64,000 nucleotides of DNA from a virus, in the IMG/VR virus record IMGVR_UViG_3300020200_000015, positions 18,961 through 82,960 of that record; one strand, 5' to 3'. The position numbers and the translations under genes are program-made. The notes under the pieces were generated by a model. The model searched no databases. It had not been told where the DNA came from and worked only from the letters and a program-made list of their open reading frames with translations. Below are positions 11,144-62,792 of the stretch, in pieces (position 1 is the stretch's first letter; each line of letters starts with the position of its first letter).

Positions 11144-11228
11144 TTGCCTCCCTAACGCTTGGCAACAGGCTAACCGCAACGCCATTGCAGGCAAGCGCAA
11201 AGCAAACTTTTTTTAGCCGCAAGCCAGT

Positions 11229-18195: not shown

Positions 18196-24718
<6,523 letters not shown>

Positions 24719-50013: not shown

Positions 50014-50026
50014 CTACGCCTTAGGG
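49974..50026 (-). terminator. GC hairpins after the 50014-50478 gene
   Basis: 49974-50006 forms a stem of G/C tracts (GGTGGGGG-CGGGGG pairing with CCCCCG-CCCCCACC), and CCCTAAGG/CCTTAGGG (50005-50012 with 50019-50026) forms a second hairpin across the stop codon. No T run follows, so termination is only probable. The G tracts could also form a quadruplex. Confidence 0.5.
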
Positions 50027-50478: not shown

Positions 50479-50496
50479 ACTGTGCTTGCCGGACGA

Positions 50497-50515
50497 CCCG
50501 CGCACCATGCGCGGG
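50497..50515 (-). promoter_or_regulatory. Cassette A hairpin (CGCA-TGG-TGCG core)
   Basis: Perfect 8-bp stem CCCGCGCA / TGCGCGGG with TGG loop on the minus strand, 19 bases before the ATG at 50478. It shares the core and loop with cassettes B and H although its outer stem differs. A matching promoter was not evident. Confidence 0.6.
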
Positions 50516-50560
50516 TAGCCCGTGCACGTGGCAGGGGCTGTTGTCCGACGACCCCACCTT

Positions 50561-50922
50561 AGCAAATACCATGCCACGCACGGCATGACGGCCTGCTTTT
50601 TTTTTGCGATTGTCGCAAGCCCTTATATCGCAACGGGTTACGGCCAATAAATATTTTCGCTGCACTATAGTGCATCGCATGGCTGGTCGGCCTTACTGTT
50701 ACGACATGGTAACGTTTTGGGCCATGCGCGCAAGTCTTTGCACGACAAGCACTTGCGGATGGCTGTTTGTTACGCTAGCCACACTGCCAATGTGCCATGC
50801 GCTAGCAAATACCATGCCACGCACGGCATGACGGCCGACTTTTTTTTGCGATTGTTGCAAGTCCTTATATTACAGGTATTTGCGACCACATAGCAAATAC
50901 CATGCCACGCACGGCATGACGG
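50561..50922. repeat. Three copies of a palindromic intergenic element
   Basis: Copies at 50561-50630, 50804-50869 and a shortened one at 50892-50922 share AGCAAATACCATGCC and the palindrome CATGCC-ACGCAC-GGCATG. The first two continue into a T8-9 run, TTGCGATTG(T)TCGCAA-like hairpin and CTTATAT. They look like mobile intergenic units or terminators on the plus strand. Confidence 0.7.
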
Positions 50923-51032
50923 CATGACAGGCTAGCATGACAGGCTGGCATGACAGGCTGGCATGACAGGCTGGCATGACAGGCTGGCAGGGGAGGGGAG
51001 GCTGCCAGGATGGCAGGGCTGCCAGGATGGCA
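50922..51032. repeat. Tandem 13-bp and 17-bp repeats
   Basis: GCATGACAGGCTG repeats five times at exact 13-bp intervals (50922, 50935, 50948, 50961, 50974), followed by two copies of a CTGCCAGGATGGCAGGG unit that is itself an inverted repeat. Confidence 0.85.
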
Positions 51033-51109
51033 GCCCGGCGTTCATTCAACCCTTTTATGAATAACAGAACTGAAAAACAGAACTGAATAACTGAATGAAT
51101 GAAATTCAT

Positions 51110-51340
51110 CCCTCAAATTCAAGTCAGCATAACTGAATGCTCAGTCTCAACAGCAATTCACTCTATCAATGCAGAACTGAATGATGCAGTCTACTGAAGC
51201 TCAGTAGATTATATCTGCTTGAATTCAGTCAGTCACTATGACTATGAGGTGCTGACTTCTTTCATTCATTCTTTCTTTCAGTCACTCTATCATTCATTCT
51301 TTCATTCACTCATGACTGAATGAAACATTGCTGCACATGG
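51110..51340. repeat. ATTC/ACTC low-complexity tract
   Basis: Degenerate repeats of TTCATTC, CACTC, CAGTC and TGAATGA. Similar tracts recur at about 51770-52080, 52555-52625, 53080-53140, 53560-53640, 54000-54060, 54530-54605 and 56070-56230, always between cassette genes. Confidence 0.75.
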
Positions 51341-51352
51341 CGGCATGGCCGC

Positions 51353-51673
51353 CTAGTCGAACCACAACTTTAGCATAGGCTCGCCGCCTTGCGGGAATAT
51401 GTTGACGGACAAGTAACCGTCAGGCAACTCGTCCGGCAACTGCCGCAAAGCAGCGACGAAGGCAGCGTAGCTGTCGGCAGTATGCCAGCCGTGCGTCAAG
51501 TACACGCTAACGCCGTCTGCCGTGCCATCGCCGTCGGCAGTCTCGTCGGCATGCATCGACAGCACATAGTTAAATACGTCAACATGTGCATGGCAGCACT
51601 CGATGACGGCACGAAAGAAGTTAGCGTACTCCTTGCTAGCGTTGTACGTAAAGGTGGGGATCGGCTTCTGCAT
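51353..51673 (-). CDS. Unknown protein, tandem paralogue family copy 1 (cassette B)
   Basis: 106 aa. Shares with the genes at 52109 and 52670 the pattern CC-x-H (ECCHAHVD here), GDGTADGVSVYL-x-x-GW, SYAAFVAALRQLPDELPDG and the C-terminal LKLWFD (FKLW in the others). It is the most diverged of the three. Cassette B precedes it. No known family. Confidence 0.7.
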   Translation of the reverse strand: MQKPIPTFTYNASKEYANFFRAVIECCHAHVDVFNYVLSMHADETADGDGTADGVSVYLTHGWHTADSYAAFVAALRQLPDELPDGYLSVNIFPQGGEPMLKLWFD

Positions 51674-51689
51674 TGTTTCGTTGTCCTTT

Positions 51690-51742
51690 GCGCCGCACCA
51701 TGCGGCGCAGGTGTAGCATACTATACGGTGCAAGGGTTGCAA
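51690..51742 (-). promoter_or_regulatory. Cassette B: promoter plus 5-prime hairpin
   Basis: Minus strand: TTGCAA (51737-51742), 16 bp, TATGCT (51715-51720), then the hairpin GCGCCGCA-TGG-TGCGGCGC (51690-51708), AAAGGA-type ribosome site and ATG 51673. Confidence 0.8.
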
Positions 51743-51900
51743 ACACTAGCCAACACATTCATTACCACCACCACTTCATTCATTCAATCACTCAGTCACT
51801 CTTTCAATCATTCATTCACTCACTCTTGATGTCATGACTTCATTCCAGAGTGACACGGTGAGGTTCATATGACTTAGTCACACTGAGTTCACTCATTCAG

Positions 51901-51942
51901 TTAGAACATATCTGCCTGAGTTCATTCAAATAGATATGTTCT
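51901..51942. repeat. Iteron-like site with inverted partner
   Basis: TTAGAACATATCT at 51901-51913 and its inverse AGATATGTTCT at 51932-51942. The first equals the core of the 25-bp iterons at 53631-53906. Confidence 0.75.
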
Positions 51943-51983
51943 ACCTGAGTTCATTCACCGTTGAGTTCAGTCAGTCACTCAGT

Positions 51984-52072
51984 CAGCGTGTAACTGAACT
52001 GAATTCATTCTAGCATTCATGTGCGCATAACTGAACTGAATTCATTCTAGCATTCATGTGCGCATAACTGAA
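51984..52072. repeat. 37-bp tandem repeat with GCGCATAACTGAA core
   Basis: Two and a half units; cores at 52023 and 52060, exactly 37 bp apart, with a variant near 51986. Each unit carries ACTGAACTGAATTCATTC and TAGCATTCAT. Confidence 0.8.
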
Positions 52073-52108
52073 CTCATGAGCCAGTGCACCTAACGGCACA
52101 AGCCGTGG

Positions 52109-52462
52109 CTAGTAGTACCACAGCTTGAAAACCGGGTGCCCTTTAGGGGCAAACAAGTTGATTACAAGGTCGCCGTCGGGCAGCGCGTGGCTAGCCATGC
52201 ACGGGCAGCGACCAACGTCGGGCAGCGCACGCAGGGCGGCGATGAAGTCGGCATAGACGCTTGCTTGCCAGCCGTCGTTGAGCCACACGGTTACACCGTT
52301 GGCTCGCAGTTCCCCGGCTTCGTCGCCAGTATACCTGATGTACCACGTGAAACTGTCGCTGTGCTTTTGGCAGCAAGCGACAATGTGCTGAAGCAAGTTG
52401 TCGTAGCCGTCGCAGTTGGCGACAAAGGGTGGCACCGTTGCCATTGGTTGAGGGTCGTGCAT
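52109..52462 (-). CDS. Unknown protein, paralogue copy 2 (cassette C)
   Basis: 117 aa, about 75 percent or more alike by eye to the 52670 gene: same start MHDPQPMATVPPF, HIVACCQKHSD, NGVTVWLNDGWQAS, LPDGDLVINLFAPKGHPVFKLW. It has an extra segment (VGRCPCMASHA) before LPDGD that the other copies lack. Acidic, soluble, no membrane segment. The Cys-Cys-x-x-His piece may bind metal. Confidence 0.75.
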   Translation of the reverse strand: MHDPQPMATVPPFVANCDGYDNLLQHIVACCQKHSDSFTWYIRYTGDEAGELRANGVTVWLNDGWQASVYADFIAALRALPDVGRCPCMASHALPDGDLVINLFAPKGHPVFKLWYY

Positions 52463-52475
52463 GTTGTTGTCCTTT

Positions 52476-52528
52476 GCACCGCACTATGCGGCGCAGGTGT
52501 AGCATACTATACGGTGCAAGGGTTGCAA
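52476..52528 (-). promoter_or_regulatory. Cassette C: promoter plus 5-prime hairpin
   Basis: TTGCAA at 52523-52528, 16 bp, TATGCT, then a GCGCCGCA-TAG-TGCGGTGC hairpin (52476-52494) containing one G-U pair, AAAGGA, ATG 52462. Confidence 0.8.
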
Positions 52529-52637
52529 GCACTAGCCCACACATTCATTACCACCACCACTTCATTCATTCAATCACTCAGTCACTCTTGACTTCAATCA
52601 CCCTTGAGTTCATTCATTCAGTAGATTGTCAGGCACT

Positions 52638-52665
52638 GAAAAAGCCACCCCGCTAGGGGTGGCTT
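52638..52665 (-). terminator. Rho-independent terminator after paralogue copy 3
   Basis: Perfect 10-bp stem AAGCCACCCC / GGGGTGGCTT (52642-52651 with 52656-52665), 4-base loop and TTTTTC on the minus strand. A second exact copy is at 54619-54646. Confidence 0.9.
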
Positions 52666-52669
52666 GAGG

Positions 52670-52978
52670 TTAGTCGTGCCACAGCTTGAAAACCGGGTGC
52701 CCCTTGGGGGCAAACAAGTTGACTACAAGGTCGCCGTCGGGCAGCGCGTTGGGCAGCCACCGCAGGGCGTCGATGAAGTCGGCGTATGTGCTTGCTTGCC
52801 AGCCGTCGTTGAGCCACACGGTTACGCCACAAGCTTGGTCGCCAGTATACCTGACAAGAAACGTAAGGGCGTCGCTGTGCTTTTGGCAGCAAGCGACAAT
52901 GTGCTGAAACAAGTTGTCGTAGTCGTCGCTGTTGGCGATAAAGGGTGGCACCGTTGCCATTGGTTGAGGGTCGTGCAT
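52670..52978 (-). CDS. Unknown protein, paralogue copy 3 (cassette D)
   Basis: 102 aa, near-duplicate of the 52109 gene without its 11-residue insertion. The high DNA identity, including the 5-prime ends, indicates recent duplication. It ends in VFKLWHD directly above a strong terminator. Confidence 0.75.
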   Translation of the reverse strand: MHDPQPMATVPPFIANSDDYDNLFQHIVACCQKHSDALTFLVRYTGDQACGVTVWLNDGWQASTYADFIDALRWLPNALPDGDLVVNLFAPKGHPVFKLWHD

Positions 52979-52991
52979 GTTGTTGTCCTTT

Positions 52992-53044
52992 GCGCCGCAC
53001 TATGCGGCGCAGGTGTAGCATACCATACGGTGCAAGGGTTGCAA
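52992..53044 (-). promoter_or_regulatory. Cassette D: promoter plus 5-prime hairpin
   Basis: TTGCAA at 53039-53044, 16 bp, TATGCT preceded by TGG (extended -10), then perfect hairpin GCGCCGCA-TAG-TGCGGCGC (52992-53010), AAAGGA, ATG 52978. Confidence 0.85.
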
Positions 53045-53164
53045 GCACTAGCCCACACATTCATTACCACCACCACTTCATTCATTCATTCACTCTTGAG
53101 TTCAGTCACTCTTGACTGACTTCATTCATTCACTCACCCTAGGCAGGCAAAGCAAACCTGGGCG

Positions 53165-53452
53165 TTAGCCCAGGTCGGCCTCAACCAGCACGGCGGTTAC
53201 ACCCTCACCGTCGGCACTGTTGCCGGCGGTGTCGAACAGGTACGCCGCCTTGTCGTGAGACATGCCCTGCGCCGTCTCCTCGTCCAACATGCCATCGGCA
53301 ACCAGCTTGCCGACCGTCGTGGTCTCAAGCTGCGCGTCGTACTGCGACGGCCCAAGGCCGTTGAGAATGCGACCGCACCACAGCAGGGTTTGAGCGTCGG
53401 GGTTGGTCCCCAGCGCATTGAAAAACACACACACAAGTCGTTTGTTAGCCAT
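53165..53452 (-). CDS. Unknown protein (cassette E), distant paralogue of 54714 gene
   Basis: 95 aa from ATG 53452, chosen because AAGGA precedes it; the frame is open further through the cassette. Contains GPSQYDAQLETTTVGKL and the C-terminal GVTAVLVEADLG. It shares layout with the gene at 54714 (GPYTKEIKLDFNTTLG, NAVVVEVAL). Small acidic alpha/beta protein without known motif. Confidence 0.7.
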   Translation of the reverse strand: MANKRLVCVFFNALGTNPDAQTLLWCGRILNGLGPSQYDAQLETTTVGKLVADGMLDEETAQGMSHDKAAYLFDTAGNSADGEGVTAVLVEADLG

Positions 53453-53478
53453 GAGAACTGTCCTTGTCGTTTGGTTGT

Positions 53479-53531
53479 GCGACGCACTATGCGGCGCAGG
53501 TGTAGCATACCATACGGTGCAAGGGTTGCAA
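53479..53531 (-). promoter_or_regulatory. Cassette E: promoter plus imperfect hairpin
   Basis: TTGCAA at 53526-53531, 16 bp, TATGCT with TGG before it, then GCGCCGCA-TAG-TGCGTCGC (53479-53497) with one mismatch, followed by AAGGACAG and ATG 53452. Confidence 0.8.
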
Positions 53532-53630
53532 GCACTAGCCCACACATTCATTACCACCACCACTTCATTCATTCATTCATTCATTCACTCACCGCTGAAT
53601 GATTGACTGATTTCATTCAGTCCTGAGTTC

Positions 53631-53906
53631 AGTTAGAACATATCTACCTGAGTTCAGTTAGAACATATCTACCTGAGTTCAGTTAGAACATATCTACATT
53701 CACTCAGTTAGAACATATCTACCTGAGTTCAGTTAGAACATATCTACCTGAGTTCAGTTAGAACATATCTACATTCACTCAGTTAGAACATATCTACATT
53801 CACTCAGTTAGAACATATCTACATTCACTCAGTTAGAACATATCTACATTCACTCAGTTAGAACATATCTACCTGAGTTCAGTTAGAACATATCTACATT
53901 CATTCA
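53631..53906. repeat. Iteron array, 11 copies at exactly 25 bp
   Basis: AGTTAGAACATATCTAC begins at 53631, 53656, 53681, 53706, 53731, 53756, 53781, 53806, 53831, 53856 and 53881. The 17-bp core does not vary; the 8-bp linker is either CTGAGTTC or ATTCACTC (ATTCATTC at the end). Core TAGA-N5-TCTA is a partial palindrome. Candidate replication origin, partition or repressor-binding site. Confidence 0.95.
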
Positions 53907-53938
53907 TCGCGGCACTTGAAGTCATTCTATACATATGC

Positions 53939-53986
53939 GCGCATAACTGAATGATCTCTCATCAACCATATGCGCGCATAACTGAA
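53939..53986. repeat. Two GCGCATAACTGAA repeats 35 bp apart
   Basis: Cores at 53939 and 53974, each preceded by ATATGC and followed by TGATCT. Same core as the repeats at 51984-52072 and 56246-56497. Confidence 0.8.
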
Positions 53987-54065
53987 TGATCTAATTCATT
54001 CCAGAGTCTTGGAATGCAATCAGTCACTCAGTCTTGAGTGATGTGCAAGTAGCGGCGGGCGCAAA

Positions 54066-54422
54066 CTACTGTTTGCGCCATGGGTCACTTAGCCATTTGC
54101 TGTTGCTACCTTGACTGTACAGCTTGCTGCCGTCAGCCAGCGTCGCCCAGGCAACCCAAAAGCCACGCGATGAGCTAACCACGGTCGCCAAGCAACGGCC
54201 TTGGTGCCAAATAGCGTCGCTACCCTCAAGGTTAGTAACCACCACCCAACCGTCACCAACTGGTTGGGCGTCGGCGTCGTCGTTGCACTGCTGGCTGATG
54301 TTGTTGTCGCCGCTACCCAGCAGCACGCACAGCTCAACAATTGCCTTTAACAAACCGCCCTGCCCAGCGGGCAAGCGTTTGCCTTCGTCCAAGTACAAGC
54401 CCAATGCCTTTTGTTCGTCCAT
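54066..54422 (-). CDS. Unknown protein (cassette F)
   Basis: 118 aa from ATG 54422. Contains MDEQKALGLYLDEGKRLP, GDGWVVVTNLEG, HQGRCLATVV and GFWVAWATLADGSKLYS, a compact alpha/beta profile. No relatives in the window. Cassette F supplies promoter and ribosome site. Confidence 0.65.
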   Translation of the reverse strand: MDEQKALGLYLDEGKRLPAGQGGLLKAIVELCVLLGSGDNNISQQCNDDADAQPVGDGWVVVTNLEGSDAIWHQGRCLATVVSSSRGFWVAWATLADGSKLYSQGSNSKWLSDPWRKQ

Positions 54423-54437
54423 GTGTTGTTGTCCTTT

Positions 54438-54490
54438 GCGCCGCACTATGCGGCGCAGGTGTAGCATACCATACGGTGCAAGGGTTGCAA
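54438..54490 (-). promoter_or_regulatory. Cassette F: promoter plus 5-prime hairpin
   Basis: TTGCAA at 54485-54490, 16 bp, TATGCT with TGG before it, perfect hairpin GCGCCGCA-TAG-TGCGGCGC (54438-54456), AAAGGA, ATG 54422. Confidence 0.85.
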
Positions 54491-54599
54491 GCACTAGCCC
54501 ACACATTCATTACCGCAGTCACTCACTCTTGACTTCACTCACTCTTGAGTTCATTCCAGAGTCTTGGAATGCAATCAGTCACTCTTGAGTTCATTCATT

Positions 54600-54700
54600 C
54601 AGTAGATTATCAGGCACTGAAAAAGCCACCCCGCTAGGGGTGGCTTGAGGTTAGTCGTGCCACAGCTTGAAAACCAGCCTACGGTGCAAGGGCTACAAGC
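54600..54700 (-). pseudogene. Deletion scar: terminator and tail of a lost paralogue joined to promoter debris
   Basis: 54600-54677 repeats 52620-52697 almost exactly, including the terminator and the last codons of the FKLWHD paralogue. Directly after them (54679-54705) comes CTACGGTGCAAGGGCTACAAGCA, cut here to a short piece, which matches a degraded cassette promoter. The body of the gene is gone, so a copy was deleted by recombination. Confidence 0.75.
54619..54646 (-). terminator. Second copy of the AAGCCACCCC terminator
   Basis: Same 10-bp stem, loop and T run as at 52638-52665. It now serves the 54714 gene. Confidence 0.88.
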
Positions 54701-54713
54701 AACTGCCTTGTTC

Positions 54714-55007
54714 TCACAGCGCCACCTCAACCACCACCGCATTGGCGGTTTCATCCTCGAACTCGCTGGCTGCTTCCCACACAGCGCATGCGGTGTCAGG
54801 CGGCAAGCCAGCACCAACGCTGTCATCACCCCACAGGTCACGCACAGCGCCAAGGGTGGTGTTGAAATCCAGCTTAATTTCCTTGGTGTAAGGCCCATGC
54901 CCTTCATGCAGCTTACCTTCGGTAAAGAAAAGCTGGGTGAACTGGTGCTTGCCGAAGTTGCAGTGCGCTATCAGCTGCACCTTGTTTGCTTTTGGTTGTG
55001 TTGCCAT
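54714..55007 (-). CDS. Unknown protein (cassette G), distant paralogue of 53165 gene
   Basis: 97 aa. MATQPKANKVQLIAHCNFGKHQF, GPYTKEIKLDFNTTLGAVRDLWGDD and an acidic C-terminus ending NAVVVEVAL. Layout parallels the 53165 product. No known family. Confidence 0.7.
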   Translation of the reverse strand: MATQPKANKVQLIAHCNFGKHQFTQLFFTEGKLHEGHGPYTKEIKLDFNTTLGAVRDLWGDDSVGAGLPPDTACAVWEAASEFEDETANAVVVEVAL

Positions 55008-55020
55008 GTCGTTGTCCTTT

Positions 55021-55073
55021 GCGCCGCACTATGCGGCGCAGGTGTAGCATACTATACGGTGCAAGGGTTGCAA
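55021..55073 (-). promoter_or_regulatory. Cassette G: promoter plus 5-prime hairpin
   Basis: TTGCAA at 55068-55073, 16 bp, TATGCT at 55046-55051, perfect hairpin GCGCCGCA-TAG-TGCGGCGC (55021-55039), AAAGGACAACGAC, ATG 55007. Confidence 0.85.
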
Positions 55074-55192
55074 GCACTAGCCCACACATTCATTACCCCC
55101 GCTGCACTCATTCAACTGCGCCTGCTTTACCCTGCGCTGAATGAATGAATTCACACACAAGGCAAGCCACCTTGTTGAAGGGTGGCCGCCCA

Positions 55193-55459
55193 CTACACCA
55201 CAAACATCAGGTCAGGGTGTGCGGGCTTGTACTGCTGAGTGCCAGCGGCCTTGTTGAGCGCGTCGCGCACAACAGGGTTTTGGTGGCCATCAGCAAACTT
55301 AATGAGGTTGTTAACCATGGCATCAAGCTGGGCGCGCATAACGCGCACACTTTCAACCAACGCGGCGTCGCCCATGCTTTCAGCATTTGCGGCGATGTAA
55401 TCATAGCGCAGCTTAAAGCGCTGCACTTGGTTGCCAATGGCAAGTAGGTAGTCGTCCAT
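55193..55459 (-). CDS. Unknown helical protein (cassette H)
   Basis: 88 aa, all helical for the first 60 residues (LLAIGNQVQRFKLRYDYIAANAES, VMRAQLDAMVNNLIKFADG). The AAGGA site lies 13 bases before ATG 55459, longer than in the other cassettes. Function unknown. Confidence 0.65.
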   Translation of the reverse strand: MDDYLLAIGNQVQRFKLRYDYIAANAESMGDAALVESVRVMRAQLDAMVNNLIKFADGHQNPVVRDALNKAAGTQQYKPAHPDLMFVV

Positions 55460-55486
55460 TTGAGTGTCGCTGTCCTTGTTGTTGGT

Positions 55487-55539
55487 GCGGCGCACCATGC
55501 GCCGCAGGTGTAGCATACCATACGGTGCAAGGGTTGCAA
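55487..55539 (-). promoter_or_regulatory. Cassette H: promoter plus covarying hairpin
   Basis: TTGCAA at 55534-55539, 16 bp, TATGCT with TGG, then GCGGCGCA-TGG-TGCGCCGC (55487-55505). Compared with cassette G two pairs are swapped on both strands, so pairing is kept. Confidence 0.85.
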
Positions 55540-55559
55540 GCACTAGCCCACACATTCAT

Positions 55560-55979
55560 TTACAGCAGCGCCTTCACCTTGGCCCAGTACTTCACCGTGG
55601 CGTCCTTGCGGTGTCCTTTCGGCCCACCATTGTGAATACGGGCCAGCTTCTCACGGTCACCGTCGGCCACAGCTTGCTTGGCGTACCTGAGCCAGTAGGC
55701 AACCACGCACCTCTCAGCATAAGTGCGGCCTTTCACGTCGTCGTATGTACCACCCAGCTCAGTGCAATGGTCGGTAGCGTCCTTCCAGTACACGCGCCAC
55801 AGCTGAAAGCTGCCAAGAGCCTTGCCCTTGTCGCCAACAGCCTCATTGTCGTTGCCACTTTCCACGGTGGCAATGGCATCAAGTAGCGGGCGCAGCTTTG
55901 TGCGCGCCTCATCGAGTTCGGCTACCGTTGACCCCTTGGGCGCAACGGCAAGCATGAGCATAAACGCTAGTGTCCTCAT
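55560..55979 (-). CDS. Lysozyme-like transglycosylase (endolysin candidate)
   Basis: 139 aa from ATG 55979. A hydrophobic N-terminus (MRTLAFMLMLAVAPKG) looks like a signal or signal-anchor. The SLT/lysozyme core follows: catalytic Glu40 in TVESGND, GKALGSFQL at 53-61, CVVAYWLRYA and ARIHNGGP at about 113-120. It would cleave peptidoglycan during lysis or act in DNA entry. It is far from the holin-like genes at 36 kb and has its own cassette. Confidence 0.8.
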   Translation of the reverse strand: MRTLAFMLMLAVAPKGSTVAELDEARTKLRPLLDAIATVESGNDNEAVGDKGKALGSFQLWRVYWKDATDHCTELGGTYDDVKGRTYAERCVVAYWLRYAKQAVADGDREKLARIHNGGPKGHRKDATVKYWAKVKALL

Positions 55980-55999
55980 CGTCGCTGTCCTTTGTTGGT

Positions 56000-56048
56000 G
56001 CGCCGCACCATATGCGGCACTAGGTATATTAGCAGTTTGCGCCTTCAA
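56000..56048 (-). promoter_or_regulatory. Cassette I: diverged promoter and hairpin for the lysozyme
   Basis: Hairpin GTGCCGCA-TATGG-TGCGGCGC (56000-56020) with a longer loop; upstream on the minus strand TAATATACC and TTGAAG give a possible but imperfect promoter. AAAGGACAG precedes ATG 55979. Confidence 0.6.
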
Positions 56049-56245
56049 CTTAAGGGCAAAATAACATTCATCCCCGCCGCTGAATGAATGACTTCAGCCC
56101 CTGAGCGCTGAATGAATGAATTCAGTCAGTCATCACCTGAGCGCTGAATGAATGAATTCAGTCAATCAGTCACTCGCTCATTCAACCATCTGGTCTGGCT
56201 GAACGAATGAACGAATGAATTCCAGAACTCAGCTGCTACGCGCAC

Positions 56246-56497
56246 GCGCATAACTGAACTACTGAAACATCAATGCGCGCATAACTGAACTGAACCAGAT
56301 AGCCACTCAATCAGATTCAACCTGTCACGCGCATAACTGAACTGAGCCAGATAGCCAATCAATCAGATTCAACCTGTCACGCGCATAACTGAACTGAGCC
56401 AGATAGCCAATCAATCAGATTCAACCTGTCACGCGCATAACTGAACTGAGCCAGATAGCCAATCATTTCCTCTGACCACGGTGCGCGCATAACCGAA
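56246..56497. repeat. 52-bp tandem repeat with GCGCATAACTGAA core
   Basis: Cores at 56246, 56277, 56329, 56381, 56433 and a variant at 56485. The 52-bp unit also carries GAGCCAGATAGCCAATCAATC and ends in AACCTGTCAC; three units are exactly spaced. Confidence 0.9.
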
Positions 56498-56517
56498 TCC
56501 ACCGGAGAGAGATAAAT

Positions 56518-56830
56518 ACTTTGATGATTAAGAGCGAGAACTAAGTGATCCTCAGGTTTATATCGATCCCCCACCGGATCGATAAGCCCATAGCTCCTAT
56601 CTTGATGATTAAGAGCCAATCCAGGCCCAGATCCCCAAGATGATTGAGTTCATGAGCTTTTATATGTTTTGCCACCGGATCGATAAAAGCCTGCTCTTAT
56701 CTTGACGGATTGACTATTACCCACACACAACAAAGAGCGGGTTCTCAGTCACAACCCGTGAATGAATGACTTCATGATATCCGTCAGGGTATTTATGAGT
56801 TTCGCCACCGGATCGATAAAGCCTACCCAT
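56518..56830. repeat. Dispersed CCACCGGATCGATAAAGCC repeat
   Basis: Copies near 56568, 56673 and 56808, a partial one near 56518, and one near 57585 that forms the end of the 57572 gene. On the minus strand each is followed by an AT-rich piece such as CATAAATA or ATATAAA, which resembles T4-type late promoters, though no gene starts there. Confidence 0.75.
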
Positions 56831-56939
56831 TTTCAAGGCTAAATGATGAAAGTTAGACCATTCTCATCATAAATAGCCTCTCAGTCCACATTTTCTGGCT
56901 AAATGATGAGCCATGGAGTAGTCTGACTGTCAGATTGTG

Positions 56940-57136
56940 GGTGTACGAGCACCCCCTCAGACAATCCTCAGAGTACTCTCAACCCCCTCATCGCCCCCAT
57001 CCATCACCCTCCCCGCATCTCACCCCATTCCCGCACTTCTCTCACACTACCATCATGGGCTTCTCTCCCCCTTCGTCTCATCTACACTACCATTCCTATC
57101 ACCCTACTACTCATATCCTAGTAGTTCAGCTACTAG
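56940..57136. other. Strand-asymmetric pyrimidine tract and inverted repeat
   Basis: The plus strand is strongly C/T-rich from about 56950 to 57150 with many CCCC runs. CTAGTAG-TTCAG-CTACTAG (57118-57136) is a perfect 7-bp inverted repeat. Possible triplex-forming or packaging-related DNA; no gene. Confidence 0.5.
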
Positions 57137-57404
57137 CGTGACTCTCTCCTGCTATCAGTTGTTCATCGACCAGCTTCATCTACAACTGACTGATCACTAC
57201 TAGCGGTCATCCGTACTCATTTACAAATGCCACTGATCAGCGTAAAGGCTTCTTGATGATGTGTCAGTCATCATCACTGAGATTTCCCAAACGGGAAGTT
57301 CAGAGGATTTCTCAGGCTTCAAACTTGAGTCACATTTACTATCCTTCATCTTTCAAAAGCCATTCACGGCTGTATTTTTGCCTTGTGGGTTTACTACCAC
57401 CCTT

Positions 57405-57572
57405 TTATTTCTTTGCAATCTCAACGCCTTCACCGTTGTAATCAGTACGCTTGAGTATGCACCGGTAAATACTAGCTAGGGTACGCAAGCTCATGATCCA
57501 GTCCTTTGTCTCACAGTGATCATGAATCTTTGATATCCTCCCGAAGAACTGGACTGCGTGGTAATCACTCAT
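57405..57572 (-). CDS. Small unknown protein
   Basis: 55 aa from ATG 57572, overlapping the upstream stop as TGATG; a longer frame would start inside that gene. Contains FFGRISKIHDHCETKDWIMSLRTL and a basic C-terminus. No motif. Confidence 0.5.
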   Translation of the reverse strand: MSDYHAVQFFGRISKIHDHCETKDWIMSLRTLASIYRCILKRTDYNGEGVEIAKK

Positions 57573-57871
57573 CAGCGACCAACTCCCGGATCGATAAAGC
57601 CTACCCATTCCAAGGTAAGCCTGAGATACTGGTCATCACCGACGACCAAATAGAGCTTGTACGCGGAGTGGACGAGCGAGAAGCTCATCACAGCCAACCC
57701 GCCCATGTGTACGAAGAGCTTGCCGCTGTCCGTGATAAGAAGCGATGCGTGATCGCACAACAGATTGAGCGGGTCATGCGGCGTACCAGCACCGCTACGC
57801 TTGATGTTGCTAACCTGGCTGTCGTCGAAACCAGCCGCGACAAGCCTCTGACGAATTGTGTATTCAGCCAT
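57572..57871 (-). CDS. Unknown protein whose end is built from a dispersed repeat
   Basis: 99 aa. Central HVHASLLIT-like beta region and LVHSAYKLYLVVGDDQYLRLTLEW. The last residues, WVGFIDPG, are encoded by the CCACCGGATCGATAAAGCC repeat that recurs in the non-coding DNA at 56.5-56.8 kb, so its C-terminus may have been altered by repeat insertion or the repeats derive from it. Confidence 0.55.
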   Translation of the reverse strand: MAEYTIRQRLVAAGFDDSQVSNIKRSGAGTPHDPLNLLCDHASLLITDSGKLFVHMGGLAVMSFSLVHSAYKLYLVVGDDQYLRLTLEWVGFIDPGVGR

Positions 57872-57885
57872 AGCTTTACCTCCGA

Positions 57886-58233
57886 TTAGATGAGTGTGCT
57901 GATGTTGTCAAGGATGCCCATGCCCTTGGCGAACAGCTTGTCCTTCTGAGCGTAGCGCACAATCTCAGAGCGCATACCCTTCTTGGGCAGTTGGTCGAAC
58001 GGCAGAAGCACATCCACGTGCTCGCCGTTGATGGTGCCGTGGCAATAGCTCACATCCCACAGCGGGAAGCCTGGGTCGCTGAGCAAGCGCAGGCGGGTGA
58101 TGCGGAGGCCAGGCTCCGTCCAGTCAACCGTGCGCGCACCAGCGCGCTCCTCATGGTACTTGCTGCCATTGCTGAGACCGTTGGTCTCTTTGGCACCGTA
58201 GTAGTCGAACGTGCCGTGCTTGATCTCGGACAT
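57886..58233 (-). CDS. Unknown soluble protein
   Basis: 115 aa, starts MSEIKHGTFDYYGAKET, has LLSDPGFPLWDVSYCHGTINGEHVDVLLPFDQLPKKGM, a beta pattern found in small phage proteins, and a helical end. Directly downstream of the Api92-like gene. No function assigned. Confidence 0.6.
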   Translation of the reverse strand: MSEIKHGTFDYYGAKETNGLSNGSKYHEERAGARTVDWTEPGLRITRLRLLSDPGFPLWDVSYCHGTINGEHVDVLLPFDQLPKKGMRSEIVRYAQKDKLFAKGMGILDNISTLI

Positions 58234-58240
58234 GATTGCC

Positions 58241-58789
58241 TTACCGGTCGTTCTCAGAGTCGATCTTCATCTCGACGATTGGGAATGCATCAAGCAACTC
58301 GGCAGGCAGTTGGGCCTTGCAATCTTCTGAGCTTGCAGGAATCTCAATATCAAAGGCGTGCCCGCCACAGCCATCATTGACATAGCCGCCAGCCAAGTCC
58401 ATCCCCGGTTCGTACCAGTAGGCACTGACATCGAATCCAAGACGAATCAGGGCATGGTAGATCATGATTGGCGGCGACCATGCGGTGAGGAACCTGCCGT
58501 CGATGCTGCTCTCAGTACCAGCTTCGTTGAGCAAAAAAGTGCCATCAGTGGGACCAACGTCCCACTTGGTACCCCAGTGCTCGAGTCGCCAGTCATACCA
58601 GCTCTCATAGCCGGTGTCCTTCTTGCGCTGCTCGTTGCGAGGATCACCAAAAGGGTAGTTATCAAGCAACTCGGCAGGCGTCGGCTTGATGTTGTGAAAC
58701 AGCTTGCCGGCACTGAACCAGTCAGCAAGCTGCCGCAACTCGGTCAGGGGACCACGGATCGTGACTTTGTTGTCGCACCAGTTAGGCAT
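58241..58789 (-). CDS. Api92/DUF1281-like ferredoxin-fold protein
   Basis: 182 aa from ATG 58789; it begins MPNWCDNKVTIRGPLTELRQLADWF, the hallmark of the Api92-like/DUF1281 family, and continues with WYDWRLEHWGTKWDV and YEPGMDLAGGYVND. Frames upstream of this ATG lack a ribosome site. The family occurs on plasmids and phages, function unknown. Confidence 0.75.
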   Translation of the reverse strand: MPNWCDNKVTIRGPLTELRQLADWFSAGKLFHNIKPTPAELLDNYPFGDPRNEQRKKDTGYESWYDWRLEHWGTKWDVGPTDGTFLLNEAGTESSIDGRFLTAWSPPIMIYHALIRLGFDVSAYWYEPGMDLAGGYVNDGCGGHAFDIEIPASSEDCKAQLPAELLDAFPIVEMKIDSENDR

Positions 58790-58810
58790 GATTATTGTCC
58801 TACTTGAGTT

Positions 58811-58837
58811 ATCATACGGGTAAAGGTCGCGTTGCAA
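58811..58837 (-). promoter_or_regulatory. Promoter candidate for the Api92-like gene
   Basis: TTGCAA (58832-58837), 15 bp, TATGAT (58811-58816) on the minus strand, the same -35 hexamer as the cassettes but without the hairpin. Confidence 0.5.
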
Positions 58838-59047
58838 TCAGGGTATAATCTGGCACTCCTTGTGGCCCATCTCCTCGCACCACATGTTGAAACACATCTT
58901 GCAGTACCCGGCGTATGTCTGGGACCAGGAACTGAGACCGCACTCCTTGCACTTCAACGGACCATCGACCTTCTCGTCGCGGATGAAAGGGAAGATGATC
59001 GACATGGCCGATTGTGGCGGCACTTTGAGTTTGTGATGCATTCTCAT
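58838..59047 (-). CDS. Small zinc-finger protein
   Basis: 69 aa from ATG 59047, which overlaps the upstream stop as TGATG. Contains CKECGLSSW and YCKMCFNMWCEEMGHKEC, at least six Cys suitable for two metal sites. Unknown family. Confidence 0.65.
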   Translation of the reverse strand: MRMHHKLKVPPQSAMSIIFPFIRDEKVDGPLKCKECGLSSWSQTYAGYCKMCFNMWCEEMGHKECQIIP

Positions 59048-59172
59048 CAGTAGGGCGTGGTGAAGTAACCCAGGAGGATGCGGTAGAAGAGCCAACCGGC
59101 GATGAGGCTGGTGGCGATGAAGGTAACGGCCCAAAGGGCCGTGTTGAAACGATTAGCTTGCTCGGGGTTCAT
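59047..59172 (-). CDS. Small membrane protein of 41 residues
   Basis: ATG 59172 overlaps the previous stop as ATGA and the stop overlaps the next ATG. The translation has one membrane segment (ALWAVTFIATSLIAGWLFY) after a polar MNPEQANRFN. The tight double coupling makes it convincing despite its size. Role unknown; could be a lysis inhibitor or superinfection-exclusion type peptide. Confidence 0.65.
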   Translation of the reverse strand: MNPEQANRFNTALWAVTFIATSLIAGWLFYRILLGYFTTPY

Positions 59173-59420
59173 TGCGCCTGCCCCCAGTAGGTGTTGAGCC
59201 GCTGCGCGACCAGCCGCTGCTCCCACTCATCGTCGGTCGCCGCGTTGGCGTTGACATACGCCAGCGCAGCGGCGGCGTTGAGGAGCGGCACCTGCTGCGC
59301 GTTGCGAATCGCCCAAACCAACTCGGCGTCGGTGAGGGGCAGCGGCTTTGAAGCCGGCAACGTGGCGCGCACGCGACTGGCGTAAAGAAGTTCTCCGGGC
59401 TTGCTGTCGTTGAGGAACAT
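59169..59420 (-). CDS. Unknown protein, first gene of the cassette J operon
   Basis: 83 aa, Ala-rich helical (LTDAELVWAIRNAQQVPLLNAAAALAYVNAN). AAGG precedes ATG 59420. Followed by the membrane peptide and zinc-finger genes. No function assigned. Confidence 0.65.
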   Translation of the reverse strand: MFLNDSKPGELLYASRVRATLPASKPLPLTDAELVWAIRNAQQVPLLNAAAALAYVNANAATDDEWEQRLVAQRLNTYWGQAQ

Positions 59421-59442
59421 TGGCTACCTTGTTGTTGATTTT

Positions 59443-59495
59443 GTGCCGCACCTTGCGGCACACCACCATTTTACCGTGAGGCATGGCAGCGTCAA
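59443..59495 (-). promoter_or_regulatory. Cassette J: promoter plus 5-prime hairpin
   Basis: TTGACG (59490-59495), 16 bp, TAAAAT (59468-59473), then hairpin GTGCCGCA-AGG-TGCGGCAC (59443-59461). The promoter and hairpin are nearly identical to cassette K. Confidence 0.85.
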
Positions 59496-59537
59496 CTACC
59501 ATGCCCACGAAATAGCAATATTCATAACTCATATCAG

Positions 59538-59843
59538 CTAGTCGCTCGAGTCAATAACGCGCACAGTTGAACAAACTGTGCACATCATCTCTTCGATGCA
59601 TCTACCGAGCTTTCGGAGATGAATGAATTTGTGATCCTCACAAGCATCCTTGTGACGGAAGCCATGGCCGTCGCACGACGGGCACAGCGCCCTGAAGTGA
59701 AGTCCAGGGCCGTACTGATCGAGCTTCAGGTTGTAGCTGCCGTGACCTTCACATCTCCCGCAAATCACGAAGTCCGGCGGCTTGTCGTACTGCTTAGTAA
59801 TGCCCTCGAATCTCCGAGGATGGTTTGCGGTGATTTCAGGCAT
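59538..59843 (-). CDS. DnaJ-type zinc-finger protein
   Basis: 101 aa. Two CxxCxGxG motifs (CGRCEGHGSY and CPSCDGHGFRH) typical of the DnaJ cysteine-rich domain, then two more Cys pairs. No J domain. Probably a small metal-binding adaptor. Confidence 0.7.
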   Translation of the reverse strand: MPEITANHPRRFEGITKQYDKPPDFVICGRCEGHGSYNLKLDQYGPGLHFRALCPSCDGHGFRHKDACEDHKFIHLRKLGRCIEEMMCTVCSTVRVIDSSD

Positions 59844-59844
59844 C

Positions 59845-60117
59845 TTAAGACTCAGGGGTTTGAACGATCACTTTGATGCGACCGCGCTTCGTGCGCTTCT
59901 TGACCTTCACGACCCTTCCACCCTTTGCAGGCTTCACGGGATCGTAGCGCCTCGATAGTCCCATTGCGCGGCGCACGGCTGAGAGTGAGTAGCCTGTGAT
60001 TCGAACAGTATCACGCAAGCCGAGGATGCTGTAGCACAGGCGAATGACTTGACGCAGCGCAGGCGTGACATTCATGCCGCGCTGTTGTTCAACTCGAGAA
60101 CGTTTCTTACGAGCCAT
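59845..60117 (-). CDS. Small basic helix-turn-helix-like protein
   Basis: 90 aa from ATG 60117. Very basic, with LRQVIRLCYSILGLRDTVRITGYSLSAVRRAMGLSRRY, resembling a homeodomain-like HTH, and a Lys/Arg C-terminus. AGAGG precedes the ATG. Probable DNA-binding regulator. Confidence 0.6.
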   Translation of the reverse strand: MARKKRSRVEQQRGMNVTPALRQVIRLCYSILGLRDTVRITGYSLSAVRRAMGLSRRYDPVKPAKGGRVVKVKKRTKRGRIKVIVQTPES

Positions 60118-60247
60118 AACTGACCTCTTTGTTGAAGAACACACCAACTTTGGCGCACTCGTTTTCAAAACACTGATCACAGATGCGGACGAAAGTTGTC
60201 TTGATCGCCCGCCCACAGATCTGACAGACAATTACTTCACCTGCCAT
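60107..60247 (-). CDS. 46-residue zinc-finger protein
   Basis: ATG 60247, TAA 60107-60109, overlapping the HTH gene by 11 bases. Translation has VCQICGRAIKT and ICDQCFENECAK, a four-to-five Cys zinc site, and ends SYGS. GGA lies 5 bases upstream of the ATG. Such small zinc proteins are common in phage early regions. Confidence 0.6.
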   Translation of the reverse strand: MAGEVIVCQICGRAIKTTFVRICDQCFENECAKVGVFFNKEVSYGS

Positions 60248-60328
60248 ACTTTTTCCGAGAAAAGGGTATTGGTTTGATTGTTGATTGGCCAGCCCGTATG
60301 ATTACATACGCGGCGGGCGGGTTCTGAG

Positions 60329-60730
60329 CTACACGACCACACACTTGAGAGCGCCGGCAAGCTGACGACCCCACCAACTCGCAGCATTGCTGCCGTTGAT
60401 GCGGCGGCCCTTGTCAAACAGGTACTGATCTGCCGCGTCGATTTGCACCGTAAACGGCACCTCGACCAACCCGTGCAAGCAATGGTTGCGCTTCATACGC
60501 TGGTCGCAGGGCTGGCCCTCAGCGATGCAGCGCACCTCGAGCTTGGTGGTTACGAGCGGCAGGCTGGCAACCTGATGAAACAGGTGCCAAGCCTCGTCGC
60601 TTGCCTGCTGAACCAGCAGGTTCTGAAAGAGCGTGCTAACCGCCGTGAGATGTGGCAGCGCACTCCGGTGCTGGTTTGCCAGCATGATGGTACGCATCGT
60701 GTTGATGCTACGTTGCTTTAGTGAGACCAT
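60329..60730 (-). CDS. Unknown protein (cassette K)
   Basis: 133 aa from ATG 60730, with AAAGG upstream. Polar alpha/beta sequence with VRCIAEGQPCDQRM, HGLVEVPFTVQIDAADQYLFDKG and GSNAASWWGRQLAGAL near the end. No family recognised. Confidence 0.65.
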   Translation of the reverse strand: MVSLKQRSINTMRTIMLANQHRSALPHLTAVSTLFQNLLVQQASDEAWHLFHQVASLPLVTTKLEVRCIAEGQPCDQRMKRNHCLHGLVEVPFTVQIDAADQYLFDKGRRINGSNAASWWGRQLAGALKCVVV

Positions 60731-61035
60731 TTGTTGCCTTTGAGATATGCCGCACCTTGCGGCACACCACCATTTTACCGTGAGGCATGGCGATGTCCAA
60801 CACCATGCCGACAAAACGGCAACATTCATTTCTCAGAGAAAACTGTGCCAAGCCAATTCATGAATTCACCTGGCCAAATCATGCGCTGAATGGCTGTTTC
60901 AGGCGCTGAATTGCTCATCGCCTATTTGCGGTGCTATTGTGCTGCCCTACCTACTACACTAGCAAACCATTTCATGCGCTTTGAGGGCCATTCACCGCGA
61001 CGGGTTTTAGCTCAAAGTGCCTACGGCAGCGGCAA
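60731..61035. other. Non-coding interval above cassette K
   Basis: Besides cassette K, nothing gene-like. Two copies of AGCGCATGA-type sequence occur. It separates the 61036 gene from cassette K. Confidence 0.6.
60747..60800 (-). promoter_or_regulatory. Cassette K: promoter plus 5-prime hairpin
   Basis: TTGGAC (60795-60800), 17 bp, TAAAAT (60772-60777), then hairpin GTGCCGCA-AGG-TGCGGCAT (60747-60765, one G-U pair). Confidence 0.85.
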
Positions 61036-61296
61036 CTAGGTGTCTAGAATTTCTTCAATGTGACTACGCTTGGCTTGATACATCACGGCAGGAGTTCCCT
61101 TTCCACACCACGCACCAACCACATTGAACTCAATCCACTCAGCCGCTCCCTCTTCACTCATTCCTTCATTCATGAAATGCTTTAGTAGCATCTCATAATC
61201 ATAAATCACAACTGGCGGCTCACCACAACGCTGGTGAAATCCAACAATGGCTTGGTCAGCGCCGTCAATGAATAGCGTCTGCTCAGTCATGGCCAT
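61036..61296 (-). CDS. Small conserved-looking phage protein
   Basis: 86 aa with LLKHFMNEGMSEEGAAEWIEFNVVGAWCGKGTPAV, a sequence style I recognise from small phage proteins of unknown function. Overlaps the previous gene by 10 bases. Confidence 0.65.
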   Translation of the reverse strand: MAMTEQTLFIDGADQAIVGFHQRCGEPPVVIYDYEMLLKHFMNEGMSEEGAAEWIEFNVVGAWCGKGTPAVMYQAKRSHIEEILDT

Positions 61297-61544
61297 TCAG
61301 GGTAGATCAGAACGCCACTACCATCGCCGCTGAGCACTTCGACGGCATTGACTCGAGGTTGCTTGGCGATGACCTCAGCAATCACGTGAATTGGCAGGTG
61401 CATATTCACGCTGCAAATAGCCTCTAAATCAGAGTTGTCGTATGTGTCACGTAAAACCGATTCAGCGCGCCAAACGCGAATAGTCTTTTCAAGGACAGAG
61501 AGCTTAGTCATGCTCTCGATAACTCTAATCTTCTTAGTAGGCAT
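61287..61544 (-). CDS. Small unknown protein coupled to the 61036 gene
   Basis: 85 aa; the C-terminal NAVEVLSGDGSGVLIYPEW motif is common in small phage proteins. ATG 61544 lacks a clear ribosome site, and the ATG at 61511 (Met12) preceded by GAG is an alternative. The leader is a large hairpin (61554-61628). Confidence 0.6.
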   Translation of the reverse strand: MPTKKIRVIESMTKLSVLEKTIRVWRAESVLRDTYDNSDLEAICSVNMHLPIHVIAEVIAKQPRVNAVEVLSGDGSGVLIYPEWP

Positions 61545-61553
61545 AGGAAAGAA

Positions 61554-61628
61554 GGGCCAGCCGTCGAGGGTTGCTGGGAAGGGGCGTGGGTCAAACGATG
61601 GTCATATCGTTCACACGACGGCTGGCCC
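61554..61628 (-). ncRNA. Structured leader: 13-bp helix enclosing an inner hairpin
   Basis: GGGCCAGCCGTCG (61554-61566) pairs with CGACGGCTGGCCC (61616-61628); inside, AACGAT (61594-61599) pairs with ATCGTT (61606-61611). It ends about 10 bases before the 61544 ATG. Candidate structured RNA or regulatory leader. Confidence 0.55.
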
Positions 61629-61710
61629 GGTGTGCCTAACTACGAATACTGTGTCCAGTGACACGAGTAAGTTGCGCCACTCACTACTAGCTGGCGCAGG
61701 ATATGAAAAT

Positions 61711-61771
61711 GCCAGCCGACGGCTATGAACATGATGCACAAGAAACCCCTCTGGTGCAACCGTCGGCTGGC
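61711..61771 (-). other. Second GCCAGCCG hairpin
   Basis: GCCAGCCGACGG (61711-61722) pairs perfectly with 61760-61771 over 12 bp, with a 37-base loop, seven bases after the stop of the 61778 gene. ATTTTC follows on the minus strand, so weak termination is possible. The arm is related to that of the 61554 structure. Confidence 0.55.
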
Positions 61772-61777
61772 AAAGTG

Positions 61778-61993
61778 TTACTTTGTGAGAGCGAGCAGTT
61801 GATTGCGGAACCGCTCTGCCCCCGCCATAGCCCCTTGTACAAGACTCACCTCGACTGAACCAGTCTCCCTGGCCATGCCGAGGAGAAAGTCGATGTAGTT
61901 AGCTTGAACGTCGGCCTTGCCGTCGTTCAACTGTCGCAACTGGTCCCTGACTTCTTGAGCGTCGGCAACCAGCTTGGCCGTATTGAACTTCAT
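61778..61993 (-). CDS. Small helical protein
   Basis: 71 aa, helical: KLVADAQEVRDQLRQLNDGKADVQ and LVQGAMAGAERFRNQLLAL. Overlaps the preceding gene by 4 bases. No motif. Confidence 0.6.
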   Translation of the reverse strand: MKFNTAKLVADAQEVRDQLRQLNDGKADVQANYIDFLLGMARETGSVEVSLVQGAMAGAERFRNQLLALTK

Positions 61994-62199
61994 AGCTCTT
62001 CTTTCCTATTGGTGTGGTGAGAACGATCGATCTTTCGAACCTCTCTGAACCGGAACTCAAGGCAGTTGTCGCCCTCGTAGTTGTCAAGAGTCACATCGCG
62101 CAGCACAATGGTGCTCTCGTGAACAGCTACTACATAGCCTGCGATGTCTTGACCAATCACTTTGGCGTAATCACCAACTCTCCAGTTGACGTTGCTCAT
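61990..62199 (-). CDS. Small beta-barrel-like protein
   Basis: 69 aa from ATG 62199, preceded by GAGG. WRVGDYAKVIGQDIAGYVVAVHESTIVLRDV suggests a KOW/SH3-like barrel. C-terminus basic. No family named. Confidence 0.6.
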   Translation of the reverse strand: MSNVNWRVGDYAKVIGQDIAGYVVAVHESTIVLRDVTLDNYEGDNCLEFRFREVRKIDRSHHTNRKEEL

Positions 62200-62228
62200 A
62201 CTGCCTCGCGGTTCAGGTAGCTTCGAAT

Positions 62229-62246
62229 GCCGGGCTTTCGCCCGGC
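62229..62246 (-). other. GC hairpin with GAAA tetraloop
   Basis: GCCGGGC-GAAA-GCCCGGC on the minus strand, just after the 62252 gene stop. Very stable GNRA loop; no T run, so an mRNA 3-prime stabiliser or weak terminator. Confidence 0.6.
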
Positions 62247-62251
62247 TGCTG

Positions 62252-62725
62252 TCACTTGGCGACCGTGATCTTGCCTGCGCTGAAGGTGTTGGCCTTCCAG
62301 GTGCCATCGGTCTGCGGCATCAAGATTACCGCACCCGCGTCGCACAGGCAGATGTGAGCGCGCAGCGGCGACCCCTCGCGGCCGAGCCAACCAACGTCGT
62401 GACTCGCCGTCGTGACGGTGGCATTGATCGGCAGCGTGAAGGTGTAGCGCACGCCATCGACCGTGAGATCGGTGGGCACATTGGCGACAGCGATGACGCG
62501 CTGACGCTTCTTCTCCGGCTTCGCCAGCGACAGCTTCAGCGGCTGCGCAGTCGAACCGGCGACAGGCGCGTCAGCGGGCGCGGCAGGCGCGGCCTTGACG
62601 ACCTCAGCCTTGACCGCCTCAGCCTTGGGCTGCTCGGTCTTGGGCATATCGATCTTAGGCAGAACGCCGTCGGTCATCTTCTTCGGATTGGGATTGTTCT
62701 TCGTCTGGGACATTTTCTTCTCCAT
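62252..62725 (-). CDS. Unknown protein with Lys/Ala/Pro-rich N-terminus (cassette L)
   Basis: 157 aa. The first 75 residues are low-complexity Lys/Pro/Ala (disordered linker), followed by a beta domain (KKRQRVIAVANVP, VRYTFTLPINATVT, HICLCDAGAVILMP). A second Met (residue 5) is possible. Unknown function. Confidence 0.65.
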   Translation of the reverse strand: MEKKMSQTKNNPNPKKMTDGVLPKIDMPKTEQPKAEAVKAEVVKAAPAAPADAPVAGSTAQPLKLSLAKPEKKRQRVIAVANVPTDLTVDGVRYTFTLPINATVTTASHDVGWLGREGSPLRAHICLCDAGAVILMPQTDGTWKANTFSAGKITVAK

Positions 62726-62739
62726 TGCTACGGATTATA

Positions 62740-62792
62740 CACCGCAACGTGCGGTGCGCGGATACATTATACACTGAGAACTACAAATGCAA
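62740..62792 (-). promoter_or_regulatory. Cassette L: promoter plus 5-prime hairpin
   Basis: TTGCAT (62787-62792), 15 bp, consensus TATAAT (62766-62771), then hairpin with CACCGCA-CGT-TGCGGTG (62740-62756). A second TATAAT occurs at 62734-62739. Confidence 0.7.

Follow-up and report, generated by a model that had tools for sequence, protein, structure and literature searches.

A repeated promoter and stem-loop cassette with a hairpin at the predicted mRNA 5′ end of small accessory genes in a phage genome

Small accessory genes of phages come and go quickly, which raises the question of how the newcomers are expressed. A locus that addresses this question lies at positions 50,497 to 62,792 of a 64,000-nucleotide stretch of virus DNA (hereafter the window; positions refer to it unless a contig is named), which is positions 18,961 to 82,960 of the 82,960-base record IMGVR_UViG_3300020200_000015 of IMG/VR. 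An earlier note had described here, on the minus strand, a recurrent unit composed of a promoter, a hairpin, a Shine-Dalgarno (SD) site and an ATG, placed in front of at least twelve genes. The unit, referred to below as the cassette, was followed up by computational analysis. As shown in Table 1, all twelve listed hairpins are present on the minus strand, including the ten described in the note as regular copies (rows headed "cassette"). The promoter-hairpin-SD-ATG order was found at 11 of the 12 listed sites; the twelfth, at 50497, is a hairpin without a promoter.

The cassette consists of a sigma70-like promoter, a stem-loop, a short A/C-rich leader with the SD sequence, and the start codon. 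Seven copies, from 51690 to 55487, share one block (A-type) of TTGCAA, 16 nt, TATGCT, 5 nt and the stem, and a second promoter type ending in TAAAAT precedes the hairpins at 59443 and 60747. The promoter boxes, previously said to be 15–17 bp apart, are mostly separated by 16 bp (15 at 62740). The site at 56000 lacks a good −35 box. The distance from the −10 box to the first base of the 8–9 bp stem is 6–9 nt, which is the position expected of a sigma70 start. The predicted +1 is located at, or no more than ~3 nt from, the base of a 7–10 bp stem in 11/12 sites and, in our reading, not 5–10 bases before the hairpin as had been proposed. At least three unrelated promoters (TTGCAA/TATGCT, TTGACG/TAAAAT and TTGCAT/TATAAT) are followed by this hairpin with comparable spacing from the −10 box, and in all, four leaders with promoters other than A-type have it in this position. 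The apex CGCA/UGCG is constant, and the loop is mostly NRG (UAG, UGG, AGG and UAUGG; CGU in one copy), with a constant orientation relative to the promoter. The CGCA-N3-TGCG core described earlier holds for most copies, except that the 56000 hairpin has a five-nucleotide loop (CGCA-UAUGG-UGCG).

The arrangement is enriched beyond chance expectation. The window contains the motif CGCANNNTGCG in 14 places (2.7 expected), a number reached in 0 of 100 shuffles; eleven of these occurrences are at the listed sites and the remaining three are at 44856, 46037 and 47262. The first scan, for −35 and −10 boxes followed by a perfect stem 2–10 nt past the −10, returned seven listed sites and one other (contig 49665, plus strand), while shuffled contigs, used as the control, gave 0–1 each. 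When the stem was required to be at least 8 bp long, five hits were obtained in the window, and 0.9 Mb of control phage DNA gave none. A perfect hairpin ending 0–50 nt before the start codon was detected at 9 of the 12 cassette genes versus 1 of the 56 other genes.

Pairing in the stem was analyzed on nine distinct copies with the use of 500 shuffles that did not preserve relatedness. Five outer pairs of the nine each change on both sides somewhere in this set, and the four apical pairs never do. The claim that the outer pairs differ between copies and remain paired was largely borne out, as 97.5% of the cells are paired (matched by 0/500 shuffles), with a C-U mismatch in the 53479 copy as an exception. 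Among the one-sided changes, three stay paired as G-U and two break pairing. In the predicted RNA folds the stem is formed in the presence of a mostly open leader, with a minimum free energy of about −15 to −18 kcal/mol in 11/12; the leader is mostly open because, in the copies measured, the hairpin is separated from the start codon by 12–26 nt that include the SD sequence. The covariance model, which had been suggested as a check, recovered the 12 sites (56000 weakly) and gave only weak or coding-region matches in relatives. It detected no additional confident site in the contig. No Rfam match reached the gathering scores in the window, and all weak matches are off the cassettes.

Comparison of the copies suggests how they arose. 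The seven A-type copies are mostly 95–100% identical from about −60 (−80 in four copies) to the hairpin or start codon; beyond this, identity drops to 10–45% in most pairs, which is near chance. The shared unit comprises ~60–85 bp of upstream DNA, the hairpin and usually the ribosome-binding site (RBS). Among the A-type genes only those of 51690, 52476 and 52992 are paralogs (39–72% amino-acid identity), and the rest show no mutual similarity. Since a near-identical cassette precedes mostly unrelated genes, it has been copied between them. Signs of shuffling of the unit are the 55487 cassette, a chimera of an A promoter and the 56000-type 3′ leader, a promoter remnant (54705-54612), and a 252-bp intergenic block that is 88% identical between two modules. 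The conclusion that the cassette is a module copied by recombination, mostly onto unrelated small ORFan genes, is well supported by these comparisons, and the transplantable module of the earlier note was upheld.

Related phages at 66–76% TerL identity exist, and the closest of them (G003, 76%) covers part of the accessory region. Three small genes of G003 have leaders of the forms GCGCCCCGCACGTTGCAGGGCGC, TTGCAC-16-TAGTAT-6 nt-GTCGGAGGCATGTGCCTCCGAC, and CCCCTGGCACGGTGCCAGGGG; in the first of these genes, AGGAG accompanies a hairpin with a CGCACGTTGC apex. The first 2.1 kb of G003 contain 11 perfect hairpins with stems of 8 bp or longer, versus 2 in the remaining 34 kb. G003 is the best independent support for the view that the layout has been conserved and the sequence has not. 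No homology was found between the 62740 gene and the G003 gene, and a relative at 52% TerL identity (L112) has no such leader within the stretch covered. Beyond this record, the A-type promoter pattern was found only in a near-identical contig, 3300020214_001594, and the second promoter pattern was found nowhere else; the cassette search of GTDB genomes, phages and plasmids gave none. A pattern of TATGCT plus hairpin matched 13 stretches of viral contigs and was rejected, as the matches are chance-like except in the near-identical contig. A hairpin + SD + ATG pattern gave a raw count of 33 stretches; most of these belong to unrelated phages and have the pattern only once. One unrelated phage (L119, 1477-1768) has two CCGCACGGTGCGG hairpins ahead of successive genes, and its first leader is convincing (TTGACA-17-TACATT-7-TGCCGCA/TGCGGCA). 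In the relative (L108, 870-1020), the palindrome CTACGCACTAGTGCGTA was observed four times and the hairpin GTGCGTATGCCATCCTGGCATACGCAC twice; GCCATCCTGGC is also present at 51016-51036 of the window.

What could such a cassette do? The reading that we favor, and to which we give roughly an even chance, is that a shuffled cassette similar to the PeSLs of T4-like phages yields monocistronic mRNAs with a 5′-terminal stem-loop, which would block decay from the 5′ end and isolate the RBS. Each cassette gene would have its own transcript, with a 5′ end at the base of the 7–10 bp stem. With its 5′ end held in the stem, the mRNA would offer no single-stranded terminus to RNase E or to RppH-like pyrophosphohydrolases and would last longer, and the RBS directly behind the stem would be kept accessible. 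A protein may in addition recognise the constant apex with its mostly NRG loop. This reading is favored because a 5′ stem hinders RppH and RNase E and because the predicted leader is mostly open. It is known that 5′-terminal structure impedes both enzymes, and bla mRNA is stabilised by a 5′ hairpin in E. coli (PMC3997798).

Several observations weigh against this reading. No recognisable −10 box or promoter is present near the 50497 hairpin, and the C-U pair at 53479 is broken. Perfect inverted repeats are about fivefold over shuffles genome-wide; because of this general excess, the position of the hairpins weighs more than their presence. The stem changes include few independent events, since most copies share one ancestral cassette, and template switching at quasi-palindromic DNA could yield paired changes without selection. 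The covariation is thus support and not proof, as the shuffles ignore relatedness and template switching is possible. The claim that the fold is selected is supported by the covariation and by the G003 layout with other stems, but template switching could mimic the signal. The sequence itself shows the copying, the stem position, the paired outer changes and the recurrence of the layout in G003; the transcription start, the fold in living cells, the regulation proposed in the note, and the choice among decay, translation and protein binding are inferred. Finally, a purely mechanical 5′ block needs no constant apex.

Because of this constancy, an RNA-binding protein was ranked second. A phage or host protein would bind the apex CGCA-NRG-UGCG as an RNA operator and control translation or elongation of all cassette genes, the lower stem serving as a holder. 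Four constant apical pairs above five outer ones that vary and stay paired, the fixed loop orientation, and a GCA-N2/3-TGC apex in G003 agree with such an operator, as does the gene 43 RNA operator of T4/RB69, in which the hairpin top is conserved and the lower part less so (PMC3014915). We regard it as rather unlikely, since no candidate binding protein was found and so short an apex may persist merely through recent cassette copying. An extension of this idea, a phage-wide post-transcriptional regulon, is more speculative, and we consider it unlikely. In it, the apex would be an RNA tag read by a phage protein, an ORFan gaining the cassette would join in one step, and related phages would keep the logic with diverged tags.

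The palindrome, at about +1 to +20, might instead act in DNA and be bound by a dimeric protein that regulates these promoters. A palindrome of 19–21 bp centred near +10 is at the classical operator position, which is where the cassette palindrome sits, and its half-sites CGCA/TGCG are conserved. This is unlikely, because the outer changes are two-sided and complementary, three of them being retained as G-U on the transcribed strand, and protein-DNA contact needs none of this; the loop sequence is asymmetric, and the five-nucleotide loop in one copy shifts the phasing of the half-sites. The hairpin may also be a by-product of recombination (duplication, gene conversion or template switching) with no role in expression. 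The chimera, the remnant and the 88% intergenic block are in line with this, as is the genome-wide inverted-repeat excess, and the SbcC/SbcD-like and RecA/UvsX-like proteins encoded on the contig possibly aided the process. Such an origin leaves unexplained the hairpin at the predicted +1 behind several promoters, the 9/12 versus 1/56 genes, and the retained G-U pairs, and we consider it quite improbable. The promoters of the N4 virion RNA polymerase are DNA hairpins upstream of +1 that are read by the phage polymerase, and they share with the cassette a three-base loop, a conserved apex, and a lower stem that varies freely yet stays paired (PMC4496689). In contrast to these early promoters, the template loops here are CTA, CCA, CCT and ACG, with T or C and not a purine at the center, there is no +1 C eleven bases from the loop center, and sigma70-like boxes are present at the right spacing. 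The two largest open reading frames match tail fibre and tape measure families; a search with the giant virion RNA polymerase family gave no match, but its control was equally silent. An N4-type hairpin promoter is largely refuted by these sequence rules and is extremely improbable.

Table 1. Cassettes and associated features of the accessory region (window positions)
Feature	Positions	Strand	Description	Gene
Cassette 51690	51674..51742	-	TTGCAA-16-TATGCT, 5 nt, hairpin TGCGCCGCA-TGG-TGCGGCGCA (51709-51689), SD AAAGGA	51353-51673
Cassette 52476	52463..52528	-	A-type promoter; hairpin 52495-52475, one G-U pair	52109-52462
Cassette 52992	52979..53044	-	Perfect 9-bp stem, loop TAG (53011-52991)	52670-52978
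Cassette 53479	53453..53531	-	A-type promoter; one C-U mismatch in hairpin; distinct 3′ leader CACAACCAAACGACAAGGACAG	53165-53452
Cassette 54438	54423..54490	-	Perfect stem 54457-54437	54066-54422
Cassette 55021	55008..55073	-	Perfect stem 55040-55020	54714-55007
Cassette 55487	55460..55539	-	A-type promoter and 56000-type leader; stem TGCGGCGCA/TGCGCCGCA, in which both bases of one pair are exchanged	55193-55459
Diverged cassette 56000	55980..56031	-	−10 TAATAT, weak −35; hairpin GTGCCGCA-TATGG-TGCGGCGC (56020-56000), G-U pair, SD AAAGGA	55560-55979
Cassette 59443	59421..59495	-	TTGACG-16-TAAAAT, hairpin TGTGCCGCA-AGG-TGCGGCACA (59462-59442), SD AAGG	59169-59420
Cassette 60747	60731..60799	-	TGGACA-16-TAAAAT, 59443-type hairpin with outer-stem G-U pairs, SD AAAGG	60329-60730
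Cassette 62740	62714..62792	-	TTGCAT-15-TATAAT, hairpin GCACCGCA-CGT-TGCGGTGT with G-U pairing, SD GGAG before second in-frame ATG (62713)	62252-62725
Leader hairpin 50497	50479..50516	-	ACCCGCGCA-TGG-TGCGCGGGT	50014-50478
Promoter remnant	54612..54705	-	Degenerate cassette promoter (GCTTGTAGCCCTTGCACCGTAGG) running directly into the 3′ end (last codons, terminator) of a 52992-type gene	
Terminator-like hairpin	52642..52665	-	AAGCCACCCCTAGCGGGGTGGCTTTTT, behind gene 52670-52978; second copy 54623-54646	

Several cassette genes end in separate terminator-like hairpins. None of the ten cassette genes tested matched PHROG, and in Pfam a single match was obtained among them, a destabilase (i-type lysozyme) domain in the gene behind the diverged cassette 56000; this protein is a possible endolysin. 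The genes of 60747 and 62740 gave no family match either. The −35 boxes of cassettes 59443 and 60747 are located within a dyad, GGCATGG...CCATGCC (59510-59460 and 60810-60762), which is a possible operator. A candidate small RNA was noticed at 63233-63103 on the minus strand, where a TTGCAA-16-TATAAT promoter is followed by a gene-free interval of ~100 nt and then by a strong terminator. Its open GUUGUUGUUGUUGCC stretch could base-pair with CAAC-rich leaders. This pairing beats other gene starts with a seed picked post hoc, but better sites than the leaders exist elsewhere in the genome; it is not claimed here.

The record contains genes for a tape measure protein, a PolIII-alpha-like polymerase, TerL, portal and capsid, which point to a siphovirus-like tailed phage. 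The assigned genes are on the minus strand. No DNA match was found among 50,697 phage records, in which the nearest TerL is that of a Microcystis phage, at 28% identity only. A protein with sigma-70 region 2 (contig 10684-11316, L005) is a candidate phage sigma factor, and because the phage encodes it, the cassette promoters may be readable by the host or phage sigma. QueC, QueD, QueE and QueF-like genes of the 7-deazaguanine pathway are on the contig, away from the cassettes. ORF-poor stretches at 53630-53880 and 56050-57400 contain 25-bp tandem repeats (AGATATGTTCTAACTGA...), 52-bp repeats and GATCCGGTGG repeats. The near-identical contig differs from this one only by a tandem repeat, an 8-bp indel and its own first bases, the 25-bp repeat array being different there.

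How does the cassette compare with known systems? The PeSLs attributed to Arbiol (2010) and Comeau (2014) reportedly have a terminator as their stem-loop, going by the 2014 title. Like a PeSL, the cassette is a short repeated promoter and stem-loop unit between small accessory genes, tied to module shuffling. Unlike it, the stem-loop is located at the predicted +1, downstream of the promoter, and is followed by an A/C-rich leader with no U tract; a terminator scan listed no cassette hairpin. Nor is the present phage T4-like, in contrast to the PeSL phages described in PMC4503421: it has a tape measure and a PolIII-alpha-like polymerase, its TerL belongs to another lineage, and no DNA match was found in the phage records searched. 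The ompA and papA mRNAs of E. coli carry 5′-terminal stabilising stem-loops (Emory, Bouvet and Belasco 1992, cited in PMC3997798). The cassette would resemble them in its stem-loop at or a few nucleotides from the mRNA 5′ end (here predicted from the −10 box, in 11 copies) with an open RBS behind, but those are single host genes and here a dozen copies of one phage element have a constant apex.

In cluster K mycobacteriophages, the SAS is a 13-bp sequence, GGGATAGGAGCCC, near start codons, and the ESAS has arms of 17 nt with spacers of mostly 4–13 nt (PMC3203893). These, too, are repeated elements with inverted repeats just 5′ of the start codons of non-structural phage genes. In contrast to them, the cassette leaders, read base by base, contain no 13-bp SAS motif; they have AAAGGACAAC-type sites and 7–10 bp stems, and the hairpins are at a predicted promoter start. 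The gene 43 operator serves one gene, that of an autoregulatory polymerase, whereas the cassette serves many unrelated genes and has no known ligand. The cassette would be a compact, naturally occurring design for producing stable transcripts of single genes. Combining promoter, 5′ stem and RBS within ~100 bp, and with copies, chimeras and remnants in view, it makes the expression of newcomer genes testable. The feature is real and well formed: the shuffling of promoter/stem-loop cassettes is a known idea, and the new element is a stem at the predicted 5′ end of the mRNA.

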